Shown here: piece after piece, positions 5,998 through 13,762 of the stretch
Position numbering within the stretch: position 1 is the stretch's first letter
Layout: each line of letters begins with the position of its first letter
Origin: a virus
DNA length: 28,365 nucleotides
Strand: one strand, 5' to 3'
Virus record (IMG/VR): IMGVR_UViG_3300025201_000001
Span: 1 to 28,365 of that record
Translations under genes and position numbers: made by a program
The notes under the pieces: model-generated
What the model saw: only the letters and a program-made list of their open reading frames with translations
Told to the model about the DNA's origin: nothing
Database searches by the model: none

Positions 5998-7299
5998 ATG
6001 GCTTACTATCTAGCATTTACATCAGGCAGTGAATACGTCGATATACCATCACCGATATCGGTTAGCGGTGACGGGGTGCTGGCTGAAATTGATTTTGTTT
6101 ACAAAGGTGCAACTAATAATGTTATTTGTGGCGGCACTTCATTCAGTGATTATTGGCGTATAGATAGAGATAATCAATTTAGAATCTCAATTGCAGGCAG
6201 CGCCAGCATCTTAACAATAAACACACCTTTAGTTATAGGCGAAAGATATACACTACGACTAGTAAGAACAGGTTCATCAGTAGAAGTTAGAGACTCAACA
6301 AATACGGCGATAACAAGCGCTACAAATATAAGCGCTAACCCGTTTATCATAGGCAAAATAGGCTCATTTCACAACGGCTCTTCAAACCTAATAATGGACT
6401 TGTACGGGTTTAAGGCGAACAACGGCGCTAATGTTTACAGCACAACCGCATCAGGTGGAACAGGCTCAACCATACCTGATACGGTTGGTGGTAACGACGG
6501 AACGCTTGTAAACTTCCCCACCGATAATAGTCAGTGGGTGTTTTATAGTGACGCGACAGGTGTAACGGCTGATGTTGCGTACACGGTAAATAGCCCATCA
6601 GCATCAGCTAGTGCAAGCGCTACCGTGCCAGCGCCGCAAGCAGACATTACTTTCACTGTATCGTCTCCTAGCTTATCGGCAAGCGTATCGGCAACGCTGC
6701 CAAATCCAATCGCAAATGTTAATGTTATTGTTAGTAGCCCTAGTGTTTCCGTAGCATCAACGGCAACATTACCACAGCCAGAATCAGATATTGTTTTCAC
6801 AGTTAATTCACCAGGTGTTTCGGCTAATGCTTCGGCTACGCTACCTGGATATAGCGCAACGGTATCATTCACTGTTGGCGCTCCAAGTGTTTCATCGAAT
6901 GCTAGCGCCACACTACCTAATCCAAGCGCTAATGTTAGTTACACCGTATCTACGCCAGTCGTTAGCGCATTAGCAAGCGCAACGCTGCCAAATCCGGTTT
7001 CAGATATTGCGTTTAGCGTATCAGCGCCTAACTTTTCAGTATCAGCGACAGCGACACAGCCAAGCTTCAACGCTAACGTTGCGTTTACGGTTAACGCGCC
7101 TACTGTATCAATATCAGCAAGCGCTACATTGCCGCAACCAGAATCAACAGTAAGTTTCGCTGTTTCACCCCCTAGCGTTAGCGTAGTTGCTATTGTTGGT
7201 GGAATTGCGATAATAGTCGATGAAGAAACGAACATTAACCAGCGCGTAATGTCAAACAACATTAACGCGCCGATATTATCAAACAACATAAACGGGTGA
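5998..7299 (+). CDS. LamG-like protein with eight 24-residue repeats
   Basis: This is a 433-residue protein. Residues 1-185 resemble a LamG/concanavalin-like jelly roll (YLAFTSGSEYVDIP, GERYTLRLVR, IIGKIGSFHNGSSNLIMDLYGF). Residues 193-384 are eight repeats of exactly 24 residues, with consensus [V/I]xFTVxSPSVSxSASATLP followed by four variable residues, plus a ninth degenerate copy to about 408. The tail contains two NNIN(A/G) motifs. The composition is almost free of Lys and Cys, as in extended surface fibres. It probably decorates the virion or binds a glycan, but no host or phage function is proven. It has an AAAGG ribosome site and opens the operon after the terminator. Its position before the terminase, away from the tail genes, is unusual. 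Confidence 0.7.
   Translation: MAYYLAFTSGSEYVDIPSPISVSGDGVLAEIDFVYKGATNNVICGGTSFSDYWRIDRDNQFRISIAGSASILTINTPLVIGERYTLRLVRTGSSVEVRDSTNTAITSATNISANPFIIGKIGSFHNGSSNLIMDLYGFKANNGANVYSTTASGGTGSTIPDTVGGNDGTLVNFPTDNSQWVFYSDATGVTADVAYTVNSPSASASASATVPAPQADITFTVSSPSLSASVSATLPNPIANVNVIVSSPSVSVASTATLPQPESDIVFTVNSPGVSANASATLPGYSATVSFTVGAPSVSSNASATLPNPSANVSYTVSTPVVSALASATLPNPVSDIAFSVSAPNFSVSATATQPSFNANVAFTVNAPTVSISASATLPQPESTVSFAVSPPSVSVVAIVGGIAIIVDEETNINQRVMSNNINAPILSNNING
6574..7221 (+). repeat. 72-bp coding repeats (8 full, 1 degenerate)
   Basis: These are the DNA units behind the 24-residue repeats. Length is strictly conserved while the nucleotide sequences have diverged, so the array is old and under selection at protein level. 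The ninth unit loses the pattern after SPPSVSV and becomes hydrophobic. Confidence 0.85.
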
Positions 7300-8140: not shown

Positions 8141-8592
8141 AATCAGGCAGCAAGACTTGCAGAGTGGGTACGTGTGAAGTTACTCACAAAGGCAAGCGTA
8201 GAGGAAGAAAGAAAATGCTAACGCCAGAAGAGTTTAAAGAAAAGTCAGAAGAATACTTTGACGAGTGCAAGGCGCAAGATGAAGCGCCTAGCATTGCTGG
8301 GCTTGCTTTTCATTTGGGGTTTTCATCTAAGCAGTCGATATTTGATTACAGAAAAGACCCTGAATACGCGCATGAAGCAAATAGAGCAACGCTATTCATA
8401 GAGGCATGGCTTAACAAGAAGGTGGTTAATAAAGATACCTACTCGCCCGGGCAATGGCACATACTTAAAGCTAACTTTGGCTATGAGGATAAGCAGAGTT
8501 TAGATCACACGAGTAGTGATTCAAGTATGACTCCTAGAGACCAAAGCTTGGCAGTCCTAGAGGCTTTAAAAAATAAACACAAAGAAGTATAA
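8137..8592 (+). CDS. terS: Terminase small subunit
   Basis: This is a 151-residue protein. The core PSIAGLAFHLGFSSKQSIFDY followed by DPEYAHEANRA is the helix-turn-helix region of gp3-type (P22-like) small terminases, followed by helices and SPGQWHILKANFGYEDK. The basic N terminus (HKGKRRGRKK) fits DNA binding. It recognises packaging sites and regulates the large subunit. The start overlaps the preceding stop (ATGA). The large-subunit gene follows after an HNH gene that has inserted between the two. Confidence 0.85.
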   Translation: MKSGSKTCRVGTCEVTHKGKRRGRKKMLTPEEFKEKSEEYFDECKAQDEAPSIAGLAFHLGFSSKQSIFDYRKDPEYAHEANRATLFIEAWLNKKVVNKDTYSPGQWHILKANFGYEDKQSLDHTSSDSSMTPRDQSLAVLEALKNKHKEV

Positions 8593-8599
8593 TAATTTA

Positions 8600-8679
8600 T
8601 GCGACTAGGAGGCATCCGAAAGGCATCTAGTCAATGCTTGTCGCAACCCTTCATGACTACCTTTGACAAAGGAATCAAT
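8600..8679 (+). promoter_or_regulatory. Structured leader of HNH gene 1; ribosome site in a hairpin
   Basis: CCTTT (8660-8664) and AAAGG (8668-8672) form a tight hairpin with loop GAC that buries the AAAGGA ribosome site. Further upstream TGCGAC (8600-8605) pairs with GTCGCA (8640-8645), and GACTAG (8603-8608) with CTAGTC (8627-8632), as alternatives; CC-GAAA-GG lies inside. The last 30 nt match the leader of HNH gene 2 almost base for base. Repression of translation is inferred. Confidence 0.6.
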
Positions 8680-9315
8680 ATGAAAACTTGTAATAAGTGC
8701 AATTTATCTAAATTAGAATACGAATTTCACAGAGACTCTTCTAAAAAGGATGGTCTTGTGACATTTTGCAAGGAATGCAAGAAGAAGTATAGAAAGAAAT
8801 ATTACTCAGAAAATTCAGAAGATGCCATACGCTATTCAAGAGAGTATTACAAAAAAGAATCCATAGAAAACATAGATGAAGTGCGGCGAAAGGGCAGGGA
8901 GAATGCGCGCAAGTACAGAGCTAGAAACATGGAAAGGGTTAGGGCTAGAAATTCAAAATGGATGCTAAATAATTACAGGGAAAGATACAAGAAGGACAAA
9001 GTTTTTACAGCCTCGACAATTGCAAGAAGAACTTTAAGAAACGCTTTAAGAAACATGGGGAAAGAGAAAGAGTCTTCTACGTGGGAGCTACTTGGTTATG
9101 GGGAAGAGGATTTTATAAAAAGAATTGAGCATTTAATGCAAGATGGGATGAGCTGGCGAAACTTTGGAGAATGGCACATTGACCATATAAAGCCAGTATC
9201 GCTATTTATAGCGGAGGGCGAAACGGATCCGAAAGTTATAAACGCTCTATCAAATTTACAACCTTTATGGGCAAAAGATAATTTGTCTAAAGGTGCGAAG
9301 TATGACCCCGAATGA
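8680..9315 (+). CDS. Free-standing HNH endonuclease with zinc ribbon
   Basis: This is a 211-residue protein. The N terminus has a four-cysteine ribbon (C4, C7, C30, C33), the middle is very basic and helical (about 35-110), and the C terminus bears an HNH motif: WHIDHIKPVSLF near residue 165, then NLQPLWAKDN and KGAKYD. Such enzymes nick or cut DNA and spread by homing. ATG 8680 is chosen over an in-frame ATG at 8599 because AAAGGA lies 6 nt upstream and the cysteine ribbon starts here. The gene lies between terS and terL and overlaps terL by 14 nt; both terminase genes look intact, so no intron is involved. Confidence 0.85.
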   Translation: MKTCNKCNLSKLEYEFHRDSSKKDGLVTFCKECKKKYRKKYYSENSEDAIRYSREYYKKESIENIDEVRRKGRENARKYRARNMERVRARNSKWMLNNYRERYKKDKVFTASTIARRTLRNALRNMGKEKESSTWELLGYGEEDFIKRIEHLMQDGMSWRNFGEWHIDHIKPVSLFIAEGETDPKVINALSNLQPLWAKDNLSKGAKYDPE

Positions 9316-10693
9316 AATAGCTGAAAACAGAACAGACCTACTTACATTTGCAAAAACCATGTTTCGCGCTCGCAAGGGCGCTGAGTTAAAGCATAACTGG
9401 CACCAAGACGAAATATGTAACGCACTTGAAAAGGTTGTTACTGGGCAGATTAACAGGCTAGTGATAAACATTCCCCCTCGCTCAGGCAAGACTGAGTTAG
9501 CCGTGATTAATTTTATGGCTTGGTGTATGGGTAATTTCCCTGACTCAGAATTCATACACGCCTCTTACTCTAAAAGGCTTGCAACAGCAAATGCATACGC
9601 GACACGAGCAATAATGCAACATGAGAAGTTTGCAGAGATATTTCCTGATGTTGGCCTGTCTACTGACTCAAGAGCAAAAGATGAATTCAGGACAGATACG
9701 GGCGGCATCGTTTACGCAACAGGCTCAGAAGGTACAATCACTGGGTATGGCGCTGGCAAGATGCGTGAACACTTCGGTGGTGCCATTATAATAGATGACC
9801 CACACAAAGCAGGTGAAGCAAATAGCGACACTATGCGCCAGAATGTACTTGATTGGTTCACCACCACCATGGAGAGCCGTAAAAACTCACCAGAGACACC
9901 GATAATAGTAATTATGCAAAGGTTGCATGAGGATGATTTAAGCGGATTCCTTTTAAATGGCGGTAATGGTGAGCACTGGGAGCATTTGCTTATACCTGCT
10001 CTAGATGATAATGACGAAACATTCTGGAAAGGTCAATTTAAAACAGAGGACTTGCACAGAATAAGGTCAACTAACAGCTATGTTTTTTCTGGTCAGATGA
10101 TGCAAACACCAAGCCCCACTGGTGGCGGAATGTTTAAGACTGAGTGGTGGAAATTTTACACTAAGGGTGACTTCTGTGATTATAGGGTTATATATGCAGA
10201 TACGGCAATGAAGACAGGGCAAGAGAATGATTACTCTGTTTTCCAGTGTTGGGGCAAAAAAGGCGACAACATATACCTTATAGACCAAGTCAGAGGAAAG
10301 TGGGAAGCCCCGCAGCTTCTAAGTATTGCAAATTCATTCTGGAATAAACATAAAGGCTCGCATGATGGAACCTTGCGGCAGATGAAAATAGAGGATAAGG
10401 CTAGCGGTACTGGACTTATACAGCAACTAAAGCAAGCAGGAATACCGGTTGCGCCAATACAAAGGAATAGGGATAAAATAACAAGGTCTTACGATGCTGC
10501 GCCATCGGTTGAGGCTGGAAGGGTTTTTCTTCCTCATGAAGCCGAATGGCTTAGCGATTACATATATGAGTTTGAAGTGTTTCCAAACGGCAAACATGAC
10601 GACCAAGTTGACCCGACCATGGATGCGATACAGGATTTAATTATAGATTCTAACAACCGCCCAACAATCCGCGTAGGCAGGCGGCGAAGATAA
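9302..10693 (+). CDS. terL: Terminase large subunit (packaging ATPase/nuclease)
   Basis: This is a 463-residue protein. The ATPase part shows Walker A PPRSGKT (around residue 59) and Walker B AIIIDDPHK (around 163). The nuclease part has the RNase-H-like acidic residues in YADTAMKTG, KIEDKASG and HDDQVDPTMDAI. It cuts concatemers and pumps DNA into the prohead through the portal. ATG 9302 is preferred to GTG 9293, since AAAGG at 9289-9293 is then 8 nt upstream. This ribosome site lies inside the end of the HNH gene, so the homing gene is tightly fitted into the packaging operon. Confidence 0.95.
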   Translation: MTPNEIAENRTDLLTFAKTMFRARKGAELKHNWHQDEICNALEKVVTGQINRLVINIPPRSGKTELAVINFMAWCMGNFPDSEFIHASYSKRLATANAYATRAIMQHEKFAEIFPDVGLSTDSRAKDEFRTDTGGIVYATGSEGTITGYGAGKMREHFGGAIIIDDPHKAGEANSDTMRQNVLDWFTTTMESRKNSPETPIIVIMQRLHEDDLSGFLLNGGNGEHWEHLLIPALDDNDETFWKGQFKTEDLHRIRSTNSYVFSGQMMQTPSPTGGGMFKTEWWKFYTKGDFCDYRVIYADTAMKTGQENDYSVFQCWGKKGDNIYLIDQVRGKWEAPQLLSIANSFWNKHKGSHDGTLRQMKIEDKASGTGLIQQLKQAGIPVAPIQRNRDKITRSYDAAPSVEAGRVFLPHEAEWLSDYIYEFEVFPNGKHDDQVDPTMDAIQDLIIDSNNRPTIRVGRRRR

Positions 10694-10730
10694 ATGATAC
10701 ACTAGGTAAAAATTAACCGGATTCGATAGC

Positions 10731-12044
10731 ATGAAACCACACATTAAGCCCACGACGGGGCAATTAAAGCTTAATTCAGCATTGAAGCGCTTGCCGTTTT
10801 ATTCTGGTGTAGGTCACTTCACAGGAACAAAGCATGGCAAGGCGTACAGCGATTACGGTTATCCGTTGGCGCTTGATTTCTGGTTTTATTACTCAGTGTA
10901 TCGCCGTATTGGCTTGGCTCGTGCGGCGGTTAAGCGTCCAATTGATATGTGTTGGTTAACGCCCCCTATGGTTAAGATTAACGATGACGAAATAGACGAG
11001 CAATTCAAGAAGTTTGCCAAGCGCATTAAAATGTGGCCTAAGCTTCGACAGGTTGACGACATGCAGTCAGTTGGTCATTACGCAGGGGTTATCGTGCGCG
11101 TTGCTGATGGGCTTACACTCGATAAACCTATGCAGCGCACAACCATGGATAACATCATTGATTTGATGCCAGCGTGGGAAGGACAGTTGATACCAGGCAA
11201 TCTAGACCTTGACCCGCAATCCACACGCTACGGAATGCCACTTCATTACACCTATCAGCAAAACGGTGTAAGACAATCAAGCCAGCGCGACGGTACAGAG
11301 CAAATGACTATCCACCATAGCCGTGTATGGATATGGAATGAGGGCGCAGTGGGCAATACTATCTACGGCGAATCATGCCTAGAGCCTATATACAACGCTT
11401 TAATGGATTGGGAAAAGGTGCGCGGTGCAGGTGCAGAGGGATTCTGGAAAAAGGCAGCTATGCGAGCGGTATTGCAAGCTGCGGCTGATACTTCTGGCAG
11501 TGCGCCAAGTGATGATGAGATGGACGACCTAACACAAGCTATCACAGACATGCAAGATAGCTTTGACGCTGTACCGTACTTAGGCGGCATGGAATTAAAG
11601 GGCATCGGAGATAGCGGCTCTATTGCGGCAATCGACAAGGCTAGCCAGATAGCACTTGAAGACGTTGCAGCAGGCCGCGGATGGTCAGCTAAGGGCTTGG
11701 TAGGCGCACAGGAAGGTAAGTTAGCGGGAGAGCAAGATACGGGAAACGATAAGCAAACCGCGCAATCACGCCGTGAAAACTACATGTCAATGCAAATTTA
11801 TTCAATGCTTGAATGGTTAACCGAGTACACCGATTACGACGGCACGGATAAGATAGTTGAGTTCGACGACTTAACCGCATCAGGTGACGAGGCTAAACTT
11901 AATCTAGCGCTTAAAATGGCTGAGATTAATACCAAGACCATGCAAGAGGTATTCAACCCTAATCAAATGCTTGAGATTGCTGGTTATGAGAAAAAGCCAG
12001 AGTTTGAAGAGGTGGTTGACGATGGTGGGGATGGTGAGCTTTGA
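10731..12044 (+). CDS. Portal protein, DUF1073-type
   Basis: This is a 437-residue protein. Motifs include ARAAVKRPIDMCW near residue 65, an IHHSRVWIWNEG segment near 193, GESCLEPIYNALMDWEKV, and the C-terminal RENYMSMQIYSMLEWLTE helix, consistent with the DUF1073 portal family. It forms the dodecameric channel at the capsid vertex. Some DUF1073 proteins are linked to Acb1-type phosphodiesterases, but no such domain is visible here. The start has only a weak site (CGGA). The C terminus overlaps the MuF gene by 4 nt. Confidence 0.85.
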   Translation: MKPHIKPTTGQLKLNSALKRLPFYSGVGHFTGTKHGKAYSDYGYPLALDFWFYYSVYRRIGLARAAVKRPIDMCWLTPPMVKINDDEIDEQFKKFAKRIKMWPKLRQVDDMQSVGHYAGVIVRVADGLTLDKPMQRTTMDNIIDLMPAWEGQLIPGNLDLDPQSTRYGMPLHYTYQQNGVRQSSQRDGTEQMTIHHSRVWIWNEGAVGNTIYGESCLEPIYNALMDWEKVRGAGAEGFWKKAAMRAVLQAAADTSGSAPSDDEMDDLTQAITDMQDSFDAVPYLGGMELKGIGDSGSIAAIDKASQIALEDVAAGRGWSAKGLVGAQEGKLAGEQDTGNDKQTAQSRRENYMSMQIYSMLEWLTEYTDYDGTDKIVEFDDLTASGDEAKLNLALKMAEINTKTMQEVFNPNQMLEIAGYEKKPEFEEVVDDGGDGEL

Positions 12045-12967
12045 CACAGCGAATAGTACCAACCCGACTCGAAAAAGACCCCACCGGACAGGCAGGCAAT
12101 CGTCTACGCGCAAAAGTTGACATCAGCAAGCGCGTGGAAAGGTTACGCGAGCCTGTTTTAGCTATCATTGATAGCTTCCCCGTTGAGTCGATAACGGTTA
12201 ACAAGACGCGGTACAACTACGATGTTAACCCGCAGCGAATTGCGGGCTTATTCGATGAGTTGCAAGCGTTGTTTTATCAGGCGCTAGAATTGGACGGGTT
12301 TAGTCGCGGGTGGTTTTTGATTCAATACCTGGGCAAAGCATGGCAAGAGGGTACGACTAAGGCTTTCACGCGACTAAAGCAAGCGGCAGAATCAGCAGCT
12401 CCAAACATAGCAGAGGTTATGCACCTTGATAGCGTGTTGACTTCACCAGAATACGCAAGGCGCTTTGAGATTATCGCGGCTAGGGCTTTTGAAAGTATGA
12501 AAGGGTTTGCAGGGCAAGCAGCTAATGACTTAGGGCGTATACTTGGTGAAGGTGTAGCGCTAGGCCAATCACCCGGCACAATTGCGCGTGATATTCGCAA
12601 GACGTTTGACCAGATTCAGGGTTATCGTGCTTTGCGTATTGCTAGGACTGAAGTTAATCAGGCTTTTACGGAGGCTAGGTACGAAGAATCAAAGGATGTG
12701 CGTGACCGTTTAGGTTTGCAAATTATGCAGATGCATGTGAGCGCCTTGGTTGATAACACGCGCCCAACTCATGCAGCTAGGCATGGTAAATTGTATACGC
12801 TTGAAGAACAGCGCGAGTGGTGGGCAGAGGGTTCCAATCGCATCCAGTGTTTATGTAGCACCGTTGAAGTTGTTATGGTTAATGGCAAACCGACTCAGCA
12901 AAAACTAATCGATAGACAAAGAAAGCGTGGTGAAATGTACTTTGCAATGCACCCCGAAAAGGCTTAA
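12041..12967 (+). CDS. MuF-like minor head protein
   Basis: This is a 308-residue protein. Residues 155-290 carry the MuF pattern: IARDIRKTF, then RIARTEVNQAFTEARYEES and a Cys-containing end RIQCLCSTVEVV. MuF proteins help prohead assembly and DNA ejection and are encoded next to the portal. The start is TTG 12041, which overlaps the portal stop by 4 nt and has GGTGAG upstream; no ATG fits. An HNH gene follows after a 96-nt leader. Confidence 0.85.
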   Translation: MTQRIVPTRLEKDPTGQAGNRLRAKVDISKRVERLREPVLAIIDSFPVESITVNKTRYNYDVNPQRIAGLFDELQALFYQALELDGFSRGWFLIQYLGKAWQEGTTKAFTRLKQAAESAAPNIAEVMHLDSVLTSPEYARRFEIIAARAFESMKGFAGQAANDLGRILGEGVALGQSPGTIARDIRKTFDQIQGYRALRIARTEVNQAFTEARYEESKDVRDRLGLQIMQMHVSALVDNTRPTHAARHGKLYTLEEQREWWAEGSNRIQCLCSTVEVVMVNGKPTQQKLIDRQRKRGEMYFAMHPEKA

Positions 12968-12977
12968 TATATAAACA

Positions 12978-13063
12978 AGGGTAAGGCTTAGCGGCTTACG
13001 GGTGGATTGGTCTCCACCTCCCTAAACTCACACAATGACCACCTTTTGACCTAAGGAATCAAT
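12978..13063 (+). promoter_or_regulatory. Structured leader of HNH gene 2; ribosome site in a hairpin
   Basis: GTAAG (12981-12985) pairs with CTTAC (12995-12999). GGTGGA (13001-13006) pairs with TCCACC (13013-13018). CCTT (13042-13045) pairs with AAGG (13053-13056) and covers the AAGGA ribosome site. The final 32 nt are nearly the same as the leader of HNH gene 1, while the upstream hairpins differ in sequence but are similar in layout. Confidence 0.6.
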
Positions 13064-13762
13064 ATGCAAACATGCAAATCATGCGGTATAACTCAACCGC
13101 TAACTGAATACTACAAATCAAATCGTACAACATCAGGTTATCGCGGAACATGCAAGAAGTGCGCTCACGAATCTTACAAAAAGCGATATGCGAATTCAAA
13201 GACATTTGTAGGGCATAACCAGAGAAATCTACCGCTACCAACAAAAGAAAGGCTGAGCGAGCTATTAGAGTATGTCGATGGCGGTAAATTAAAGAGAAAG
13301 GTTTCTGCTGGAAATCAAAAATATGGAACAGTCACTTCGGGCAAACAAGAGAGTCACGGGTATTGTCGAATACTGGTTGATGGAGACCACTATCTTTTTC
13401 ATAGAATTGTATGGCGCCTTGTGTATGGTGATGAACCTAAATTTATAGACCATATTAACAATGTAAGAAGCGATAATAGGATTGAGAATTTAAGACGCGT
13501 GGATAAATCTAGCAATTGCCAGCATCAACTTAAGCCAAAAAGCAATACAAGCGGATTTATCGGAGTTAGTAGGGTAAGGTCGTCTGGCAATTGGACTGCA
13601 AAGATATGCGTAAAATCAAAGAGCATCACGATAGGAAATTATTCAAACATAAAAGACGCAGTCCTAGCCTACAATGAAAAGTGTAATGAATTACATGGTG
13701 AGTTTGGCAAATCAAAGATAATACACAACATGGAAGAGTTAAAAAGGAGAGGGCTTATATAG
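13064..13762 (+). CDS. HNH homing endonuclease with zinc ribbon and AP2-like domain
   Basis: This is a 232-residue protein with three parts. A zinc ribbon has C4, C7, C30 and C33, the same spacing as in HNH gene 1. An HNH_3-type core reads HRIVWRLVYG, FIDHINNVRSDNRIENLR and SSNCQH (about 120-165). An AP2-like DNA-binding domain follows (SGFIGVSRVRSSGNWTAKI to NELHGEFG, about 168-220). It is a free-standing mobile endonuclease between the MuF and DUF2213 genes; neighbours are intact. AAGGA lies 6 nt before ATG 13064 but inside a hairpin. The stop codon lies in the terminator-like hairpin at 13749. Confidence 0.88.
   Translation: MQTCKSCGITQPLTEYYKSNRTTSGYRGTCKKCAHESYKKRYANSKTFVGHNQRNLPLPTKERLSELLEYVDGGKLKRKVSAGNQKYGTVTSGKQESHGYCRILVDGDHYLFHRIVWRLVYGDEPKFIDHINNVRSDNRIENLRRVDKSSNCQHQLKPKSNTSGFIGVSRVRSSGNWTAKICVKSKSITIGNYSNIKDAVLAYNEKCNELHGEFGKSKIIHNMEELKRRGLI

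Follow-up and report, generated by a model that had tools for sequence, protein, structure and literature searches.

A 28,365-nucleotide (nt) stretch of viral DNA (IMG/VR record IMGVR_UViG_3300025201_000001, positions 1 to 28,365; hereafter the window) carries two HNH endonuclease genes, HNH1 and HNH2, whose upstream RNA leaders end in nearly the same tail. Our comparison of related leaders suggests that leaders of this type control the initiation of translation in cis by adopting one of two states. They would form a portable cassette, which mostly accompanies homing-endonuclease genes but is found with other phage and prophage genes as well. We put the probability of this reading at roughly 0.78. 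Specifically, the loop L3 of a conserved three-way junction is complementary to two sites in the tail, site A just after stem P1 and site B in the loop of a hairpin that hides the Shine-Dalgarno (SD) sequence. The two pairings are mutually exclusive because they use the same loop bases. Since A and B thus compete for L3, the leader probably switches translation between two states.

Results

Architecture of the HNH1 leader

The preliminary description of this DNA started from the near-identity of the last 30–32 nt before the two HNH start codons, and in this it was correct. HNH1 is preceded at 8653–8682 by ATGACTACCTTTGACAAAGGAATCAATATG and HNH2 at 13035–13066 by ATGACCACCTTTTGACCTAAGGAATCAATATG; the text common to both tails is ATGAC(T/C)ACCTTT(T)GAC..AAGGAATCAATATG, and the 14-mer AAGGAATCAATATG has exactly two occurrences in the window. 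In blastn the HNH1 tail matches the copy of the HNH2 tail in Alteromonas phage XX1924 at 86% over 37 nt (E 4e-4). Judging from the leader comparison, a structured RNA of ~85 nt lies upstream of HNH1, and the 30 nt in common make up no more than its 3' end. The start of the HNH1 unit, previously placed at 8653, is too late; the unit begins between ~8588 (promoter) and 8598.

The order of elements in the HNH1 leader is a three-way junction (P1, P2, GAAA, P3), the tail with the SD-hiding hairpin and the start codon. The whole unit (8598–8682; all features described here are on the plus strand) matches our covariance model R1 with 63.1 bits (E 7.8e-18 over 592 kb), although the leader is itself among the 22 sequences used to build the model. 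This 63-bit alignment contains CUAG and CGAAA(A) within the three-way fold of P1, P2 and P3. P1 (8600–8605/8640–8645) encloses the junction, P2 is a hairpin at 8608–8610/8615–8617, and P3 (8623–8626/8634–8637) carries L3, CUAGUCA, at 8627–8633. Between the stems are an invariant UA (8606–8607) and the conserved GAAA junction strand (8618–8621), both of which are nearly invariant also in 23 leaders collected without sequence patterns. In the tail, site A (UGACUA, 8654–8659) can form 6 bp with L3 (duplex −6.5 kcal/mol) and is followed by the SD-hiding hairpin CCUUU(GAC)AAAGG at 8660–8672, assigned by comparison of leaders. Its loop holds site B (UGAC, 8664–8667), the second partner of L3 (duplex −5.3 kcal/mol). 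A putative promoter, seen in the sequence, overlaps the TerS stop codon at 8565–8593 and consists of TTTAAA (8565–8570), a spacer of 17 nt and the −10 box TATAAT (8588–8593). A −10-like hexamer TAnnnT is found at the matching distance in 22 of 35 leaders that were collected without requiring it, versus 19% in shuffled flanks.

A family of co-varying leaders

Upstream regions of HNH homologues share the arrangement GCGRC-UAG-short hairpin-GAAA-hairpin-GYCGC over ~85 nt, just 3' of a TATAAT box. It is seen, for instance, in Pseudoalteromonas phage TW1 (L105), Yersinia phage P400 (L106) and the environmental phages L014 and L097. Leaders were collected by pattern scans of IMG/VR and genomes, by comparison of HNH homologues and then with R1, in which the P1, P2 and P3 pairs are the only ones specified. 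R1 retrieves further leaders without a fixed motif, some of them in bacterial genomes (7 out of 369 for Gammaproteobacteria and 13 out of 295 for one family); the low-scoring genome matches L277, L291, L279, L269 and L270 were judged false.

In the alignment of 78 leaders 87% of cells are paired, and the covariation score is 0.659, compared to 0.165 after shuffling and at most 0.12 with the partners slid. P1, P2 and P3 all co-vary; a covariation analysis was the check proposed in the preliminary description. The P1 sequence can differ wholly (GCUAUGGC/GCCAUAGC, ACUCCAGC/GCUGGAGU, GCCGCGCC/GGCGCGGC) with the junction UA and GAAA retained. The start codon is located 29–36 nt after P1, this distance being the tail length, and in 77 of 81 leaders the model end coincides with the start of an open reading frame of at least 40 amino acids (aa), versus 19% at random positions. 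The question whether related HNH genes have related leaders received a mixed answer: among 80 loci with distant HNH1 homologues, fetched without use of the motif, the majority have no leader, but it is present in L014, L047, L017/L018, L062 and L090.

The same comparison, over 78 leaders, proves the SD hairpin as far as sequences can. All 76 testable leaders have the SD within the hairpin, 45 of them with at least part of it in the hairpin loop. The pairing over the SD suggested earlier is possible in both genes of the window, as CCTTT/AAAGG in HNH1 and CCTT/AAGG in HNH2.

When viral contigs were searched literally for the 30-nt tail, most matches stood in front of unrelated virion genes (L001–L006, L008–L013). 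These were set aside: their upstream region differs, and what they have is a strong SD with a small hairpin. Another short leader (terminator, TACAAT, TCTCACCTTTTCAAAGGAATCAAT), represented by L001–L006 and L008–L011, occurs in many environmental phages upstream of a small virion-like gene; it shares the SD-hairpin text through coincidence or convergence.

Two tail sites compete for the same loop

Pairing between loop and tail was tested by loop swapping because MAFFT columns misalign it through differences in loop length. More specifically, the longest Watson-Crick run with a leader's own loop was compared to that with loops swapped among the 78 leaders, which have 53 distinct loops. On average this run is 5.08 for L3-A versus 2.92 for swapped loops (standard deviation 0.12, z 18) and 4.58 for L3-B versus 2.65 (standard deviation 0.12, z 16). 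Leaders found by the P1/P2/P3 model or by homologue search, with no sequence pattern involved, give z 8.0 for A and 7.2 for B. Both pairings reach at least 4 bp in 67 of the 78 leaders, in every case using shared L3 bases. Mean duplex energies are near-balanced (A −6.6, B −5.6 kcal/mol), which counts in favour of a switch.

Very different sequences keep this relationship. L274 has L3 UCUCUCAC, A GUGAGAG and B CCG(UGUGAGAG)CGG; L116 has L3 ACACAGA, A UCUGUG and B AACCUA(CUGUG)AGGUU; L131 has L3 AUCGCCU, A AGGCGAU and B (GAGGCG). In 10 leaders the loop bases used by A and by B overlap without being the same (in L105, CAGCUC pairs with A and UCACAG with B), so the two sites are not mere direct repeats.

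The HNH2 leader

The leader of HNH2 is preceded by a −10-like TAATAT (12965–12970, seen in the sequence) and has a 5' domain (12978–13023) which by single-sequence folding is three-way-junction-like and unlike that of HNH1. Its helices are AGGG 12978–12981/CCCU 13020–13023, UAAG 12982–12985/CUUA 12995–12998 and GGUGGA 13001–13006/UCCACC 13013–13018, the last with the loop UUGGUC (13007–13012). The tail (13035–13063) contains site A, GACCA (13037–13041), the SD hairpin CCUU 13042–13045/AAGG 13053–13056 and site B, GACC (13048–13051). From HNH1 to HNH2 the changes are compensating: the loop goes from UAGUC to UGGUC, A from GACUA to GACCA, and B gains a C. The tail bases that had looked variable, T to C in ATGAC(T/C)A and the extra C after the second GAC, thus match A to G in the upstream P3 loop. 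With its own loop HNH2 forms 5 bp at A and 4 bp at B, and exchanging the loops of HNH1 and HNH2 lowers A to 3–4 bp. Taken alone this pairing is weak evidence: mismatched loop/tail pairs do equally well in 1.7% of cases, and shuffled HNH2 loops in 3.5%.

The 5' domain of HNH2 is found in close relatives alone, e.g. Alteromonas phage XX1924, and the leader is 94–96% identical to those of relatives. In L096 the leader is 94% identical, the HNH2 gene 76% and the preceding gene 68%, which indicates that the leader is under strong constraint. The canonical leader is that of HNH1; that of HNH2 is chimeric and keeps the logic of the tail. The idea of a common leader on two HNH classes therefore holds for the tail and both pairings and fails for the 5' domains. 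Reading ATGACCACCTTTTGA before HNH2 as a four-codon upstream open reading frame was dropped: no SD was seen for it, and its bases are accounted for by site A.

Genes behind the leaders

Among the genes behind 57 leaders, HNH_3 is found in 22; the rest include other HNH, NUMOD4, AP2 and endonuclease VII types. The non-HNH genes in this set are GIY-YIG, KilA-N, helicases, Prim-Pol, C5 methylase and an intein-bearing TerL, and prophage leaders are followed by DUF551 and unknown genes. The leader is thus not HNH-specific. Most phage records have one leader and some have two.

Insertion positions recur. Plesiomonas phiP4-7 has the leader between TerS and TerL, like HNH1 in the window, and Salmonella 64795_sal3 and Acinetobacter AB4P2 have it after the head-morphogenesis gene, like HNH2. 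L142 has the order TerS-leader-HNH-TerL. In L145 an 86-nt leader identical to that of L142 stands directly before the intein-bearing TerL, and the junction is exact at the start codon (intervals compared, L145:9142-10668 and L142:461-1059). Either the HNH gene was lost or HNH was inserted behind an existing leader. The L145 TerL has a LAGLIDADG intein at the GGRG site.

Between several multi-kilobase loci the leader is the sole detectable nucleotide similarity, for example L209 (helicase)/L214 (HNH), L116/L190 and L214/L220 (GIY-YIG). The leader appears to move independently of the gene, since many phage pairs share no other DNA. The earlier proposal of a selected, transferable control unit is supported by these pairs, in which the shared sequence stands before different genes.

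Relation to int-alpA

The leader family is, by model scores, continuous with Rfam RF02996, int-alpA, which has the same P1-P2-GAAA-P3 architecture. R1 members score 30–76 bits with the Rfam model (gathering score 35.8) and form a continuum. In the Rfam consensus L3 contains CCuU and the 3' end AgGG, and the two are not annotated as a pair. Within window positions 8400–13200 there is no int-alpA match even at E ≤ 10, so the gathering score of 35.8 bits is not reached, and the model does not reach L014, L105 or L106 either. A search with Rfam at the gathering threshold in the window and the first relatives yielded one tRNA and nothing else. The int-alpA model includes no pseudoknot. It extends to the vicinity of site A, ~24 nt short of the start codon, and so covers neither the SD hairpin with site B nor the start codon itself. 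The RF02996 entry probably needs ~25 nt more at its 3' end, a pseudoknot and the cis-regulatory type. The family reportedly originates from Weinberg 2017. In the searched open-access papers int-alpA appears once, as a putative small RNA (sRNA) without function.

The two HNH genes and their neighbourhood

Gene assignments are from sequence and family matches. HNH1 (8680–9315), between TerS and TerL, encodes a zinc-ribbon HNH endonuclease (endonuclease VII-like) matching PF01844 and the 'endonuclease VII' PHROG 1035. HNH2 (13064–13762), 3' of a Mu F-like head morphogenesis gene, has a zinc ribbon, HNH_3 and an AP2-like part, with matches to HNH_3, weakly to AP2, and to PHROG 99. As already noticed in the preliminary description, the enzymes differ; their similarity is confined to the N-terminal zinc ribbon of ~43 aa (28%). 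Both proteins (8680–9312 and 13064–13759) match PHROG 5558, 'Lar-like restriction alleviation', via the zinc ribbon alone, and this label is likely misleading for both.

Matches to Alteromonas phage XX1924 (78–84% nt) cover the TerS core as far as 8496 and resume at 10662, and the TerL block of the window matches L014 (76% nt, 77% aa). Window positions 8497–10693 (TerS C-terminus, HNH1, TerL) are of a lineage other than the rest of the window. On this comparison HNH1 was brought into the window by a packaging-module swap. XX1924 was rejected as an empty site for HNH1: its TerL matches only as a weak 26% piece, and it is unusable because its entire TerL region is of a different lineage. The TerS C-terminus, leader, HNH1 and TerL therefore seem to have arrived as one block related to L014.

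In Vibrio phage pYD21-A (L104, 6263–6970) the annotated endonuclease start, 6425, is 162 nt 3' of the homology-supported start at 6263, which removes the zinc ribbon of the endonuclease. This endonuclease is an HNH2 homologue and has no leader matched by the family model.

Discussion

Regulation in cis is well supported computationally. In the mechanism we propose, pairing of L3 with B would clamp the SD hairpin and keep translation off, and pairing of L3 with A would release the clamp, so that ribosomes could open the short hairpin. L3-A may form first because A is transcribed first. The conserved junction would probably sense a protein, a metabolite, an ion or transcription speed and thereby shift the balance between A and B. 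For a homing endonuclease, a potentially harmful nuclease could in this way be kept silent until a suitable moment of infection.

Several points weigh against this interpretation. The assignment of the off and on states to L3-B and L3-A was reached by reasoning. The energies of the loop-tail pairings are values for duplexes taken apart from the remaining fold. The 51-nt stretches folded alone are no better than shuffles (z −0.6 and −1.2), so a single sequence cannot prove the SD hairpin. Leaders were gathered partly with sequence patterns (UAG, GAAA, sometimes TATAAT), which inflates the conservation of these motifs in part of the set. It is important to note that the tail columns sat in the R1 training alignment, as unpaired columns. 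R1 does not recognise the HNH2 leader, which scores 1.9 bits even with filters switched off, and a clear site B was not detected by the automatic parser in L185, L214, L220, L289 and L268, some of which can be read differently by eye.

Hairpins that hide the ribosome-binding site (RBS) have been established for I-TevI/II/III, segB and Aeh1 mobE, and in T4 the late promoter is sited such that late transcripts lack the inhibitory hairpin (PMC2988022). The T4-type homing endonucleases are likewise selfish endonuclease genes with the RBS in a hairpin (PMC2988022), and here, too, the RBS is contained in a stem upstream of an endonuclease gene. The leader might then be plain T4-style control, in which the SD would be hidden by a local hairpin and there would be no switching. 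The upstream RNA would serve only to stabilise the 5' end or as a promoter-proximal structure, and L3-A would be a structural pseudoknot. The SD hairpin, conserved in all testable leaders, and the phage precedents speak for this. However, site B co-varies with L3 as strongly as A does, in 10 leaders through another part of the loop. T4-type hairpins are individual and local and are bypassed by a late promoter, whereas here unrelated genes have a common junction RNA whose loop has two alternative partners, and the sole −10-like box noted for HNH1 is upstream of the whole leader. We regard this explanation as unlikely. The comparison to T4 in the preliminary description is right about the hidden SD and falls short in that the leader is not a single hairpin.

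Near-identical cassettes in otherwise unrelated phages, their recurrent positions at TerS/TerL and after the head-morphogenesis gene, and the identical leader before HNH in L142 and TerL in L145 would also suit a DNA-level landmark of homing or recombination (a cleavage site or homology arm), spread by co-conversion with endonuclease genes and with RNA folding as a secondary matter. Compensatory changes in P1, P2, P3 and both loop pairings fit an RNA and not a DNA site, and a P1 of wholly different sequence is hard to reconcile with such a landmark, which makes this explanation highly improbable. We give even less credence to a trans-acting sRNA that lies upstream of genes by chance. Rfam files int-alpA as 'Gene; sRNA', and the element has its own promoter-like −10, but the leaders are positioned before start codons, with the gene start at a fixed distance after P1 in 77 of 81, the L3 partners co-vary within the same RNA, and the Rfam model ends before the SD hairpin and site B.

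One general class of regulatory RNA comprises translational riboswitches that have a pseudoknot and competing anti-SD pairings. The cis-acting switch proposed here resembles them in its conserved junction nucleotides, its pseudoknot and its mutually exclusive pairings ending at the SD; the conserved junction and the exclusive structures were found computationally. It differs in that no ligand is known for it, the downstream genes have no common pathway and it is carried by mobile phage genes. Tentatively, the junction could be a true sensor of a small molecule, an ion or a phage or host protein. If this is true, the cassette would be a mobile, riboswitch-like promoter-sensor-switch module, reused by several catalytic families of homing endonucleases to time their expression; we consider this possible, though the odds are somewhat against it.

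The paired L3, A and B sites allow straightforward reporter tests with single-base compensatory changes. With our results int-alpA, an orphan family filed as an sRNA of unknown function, gains a likely job as a testable cis-acting translation switch. One portable control cassette would be common to unrelated phage homing endonucleases, which adds to the understanding of how phages may keep selfish nucleases quiet.

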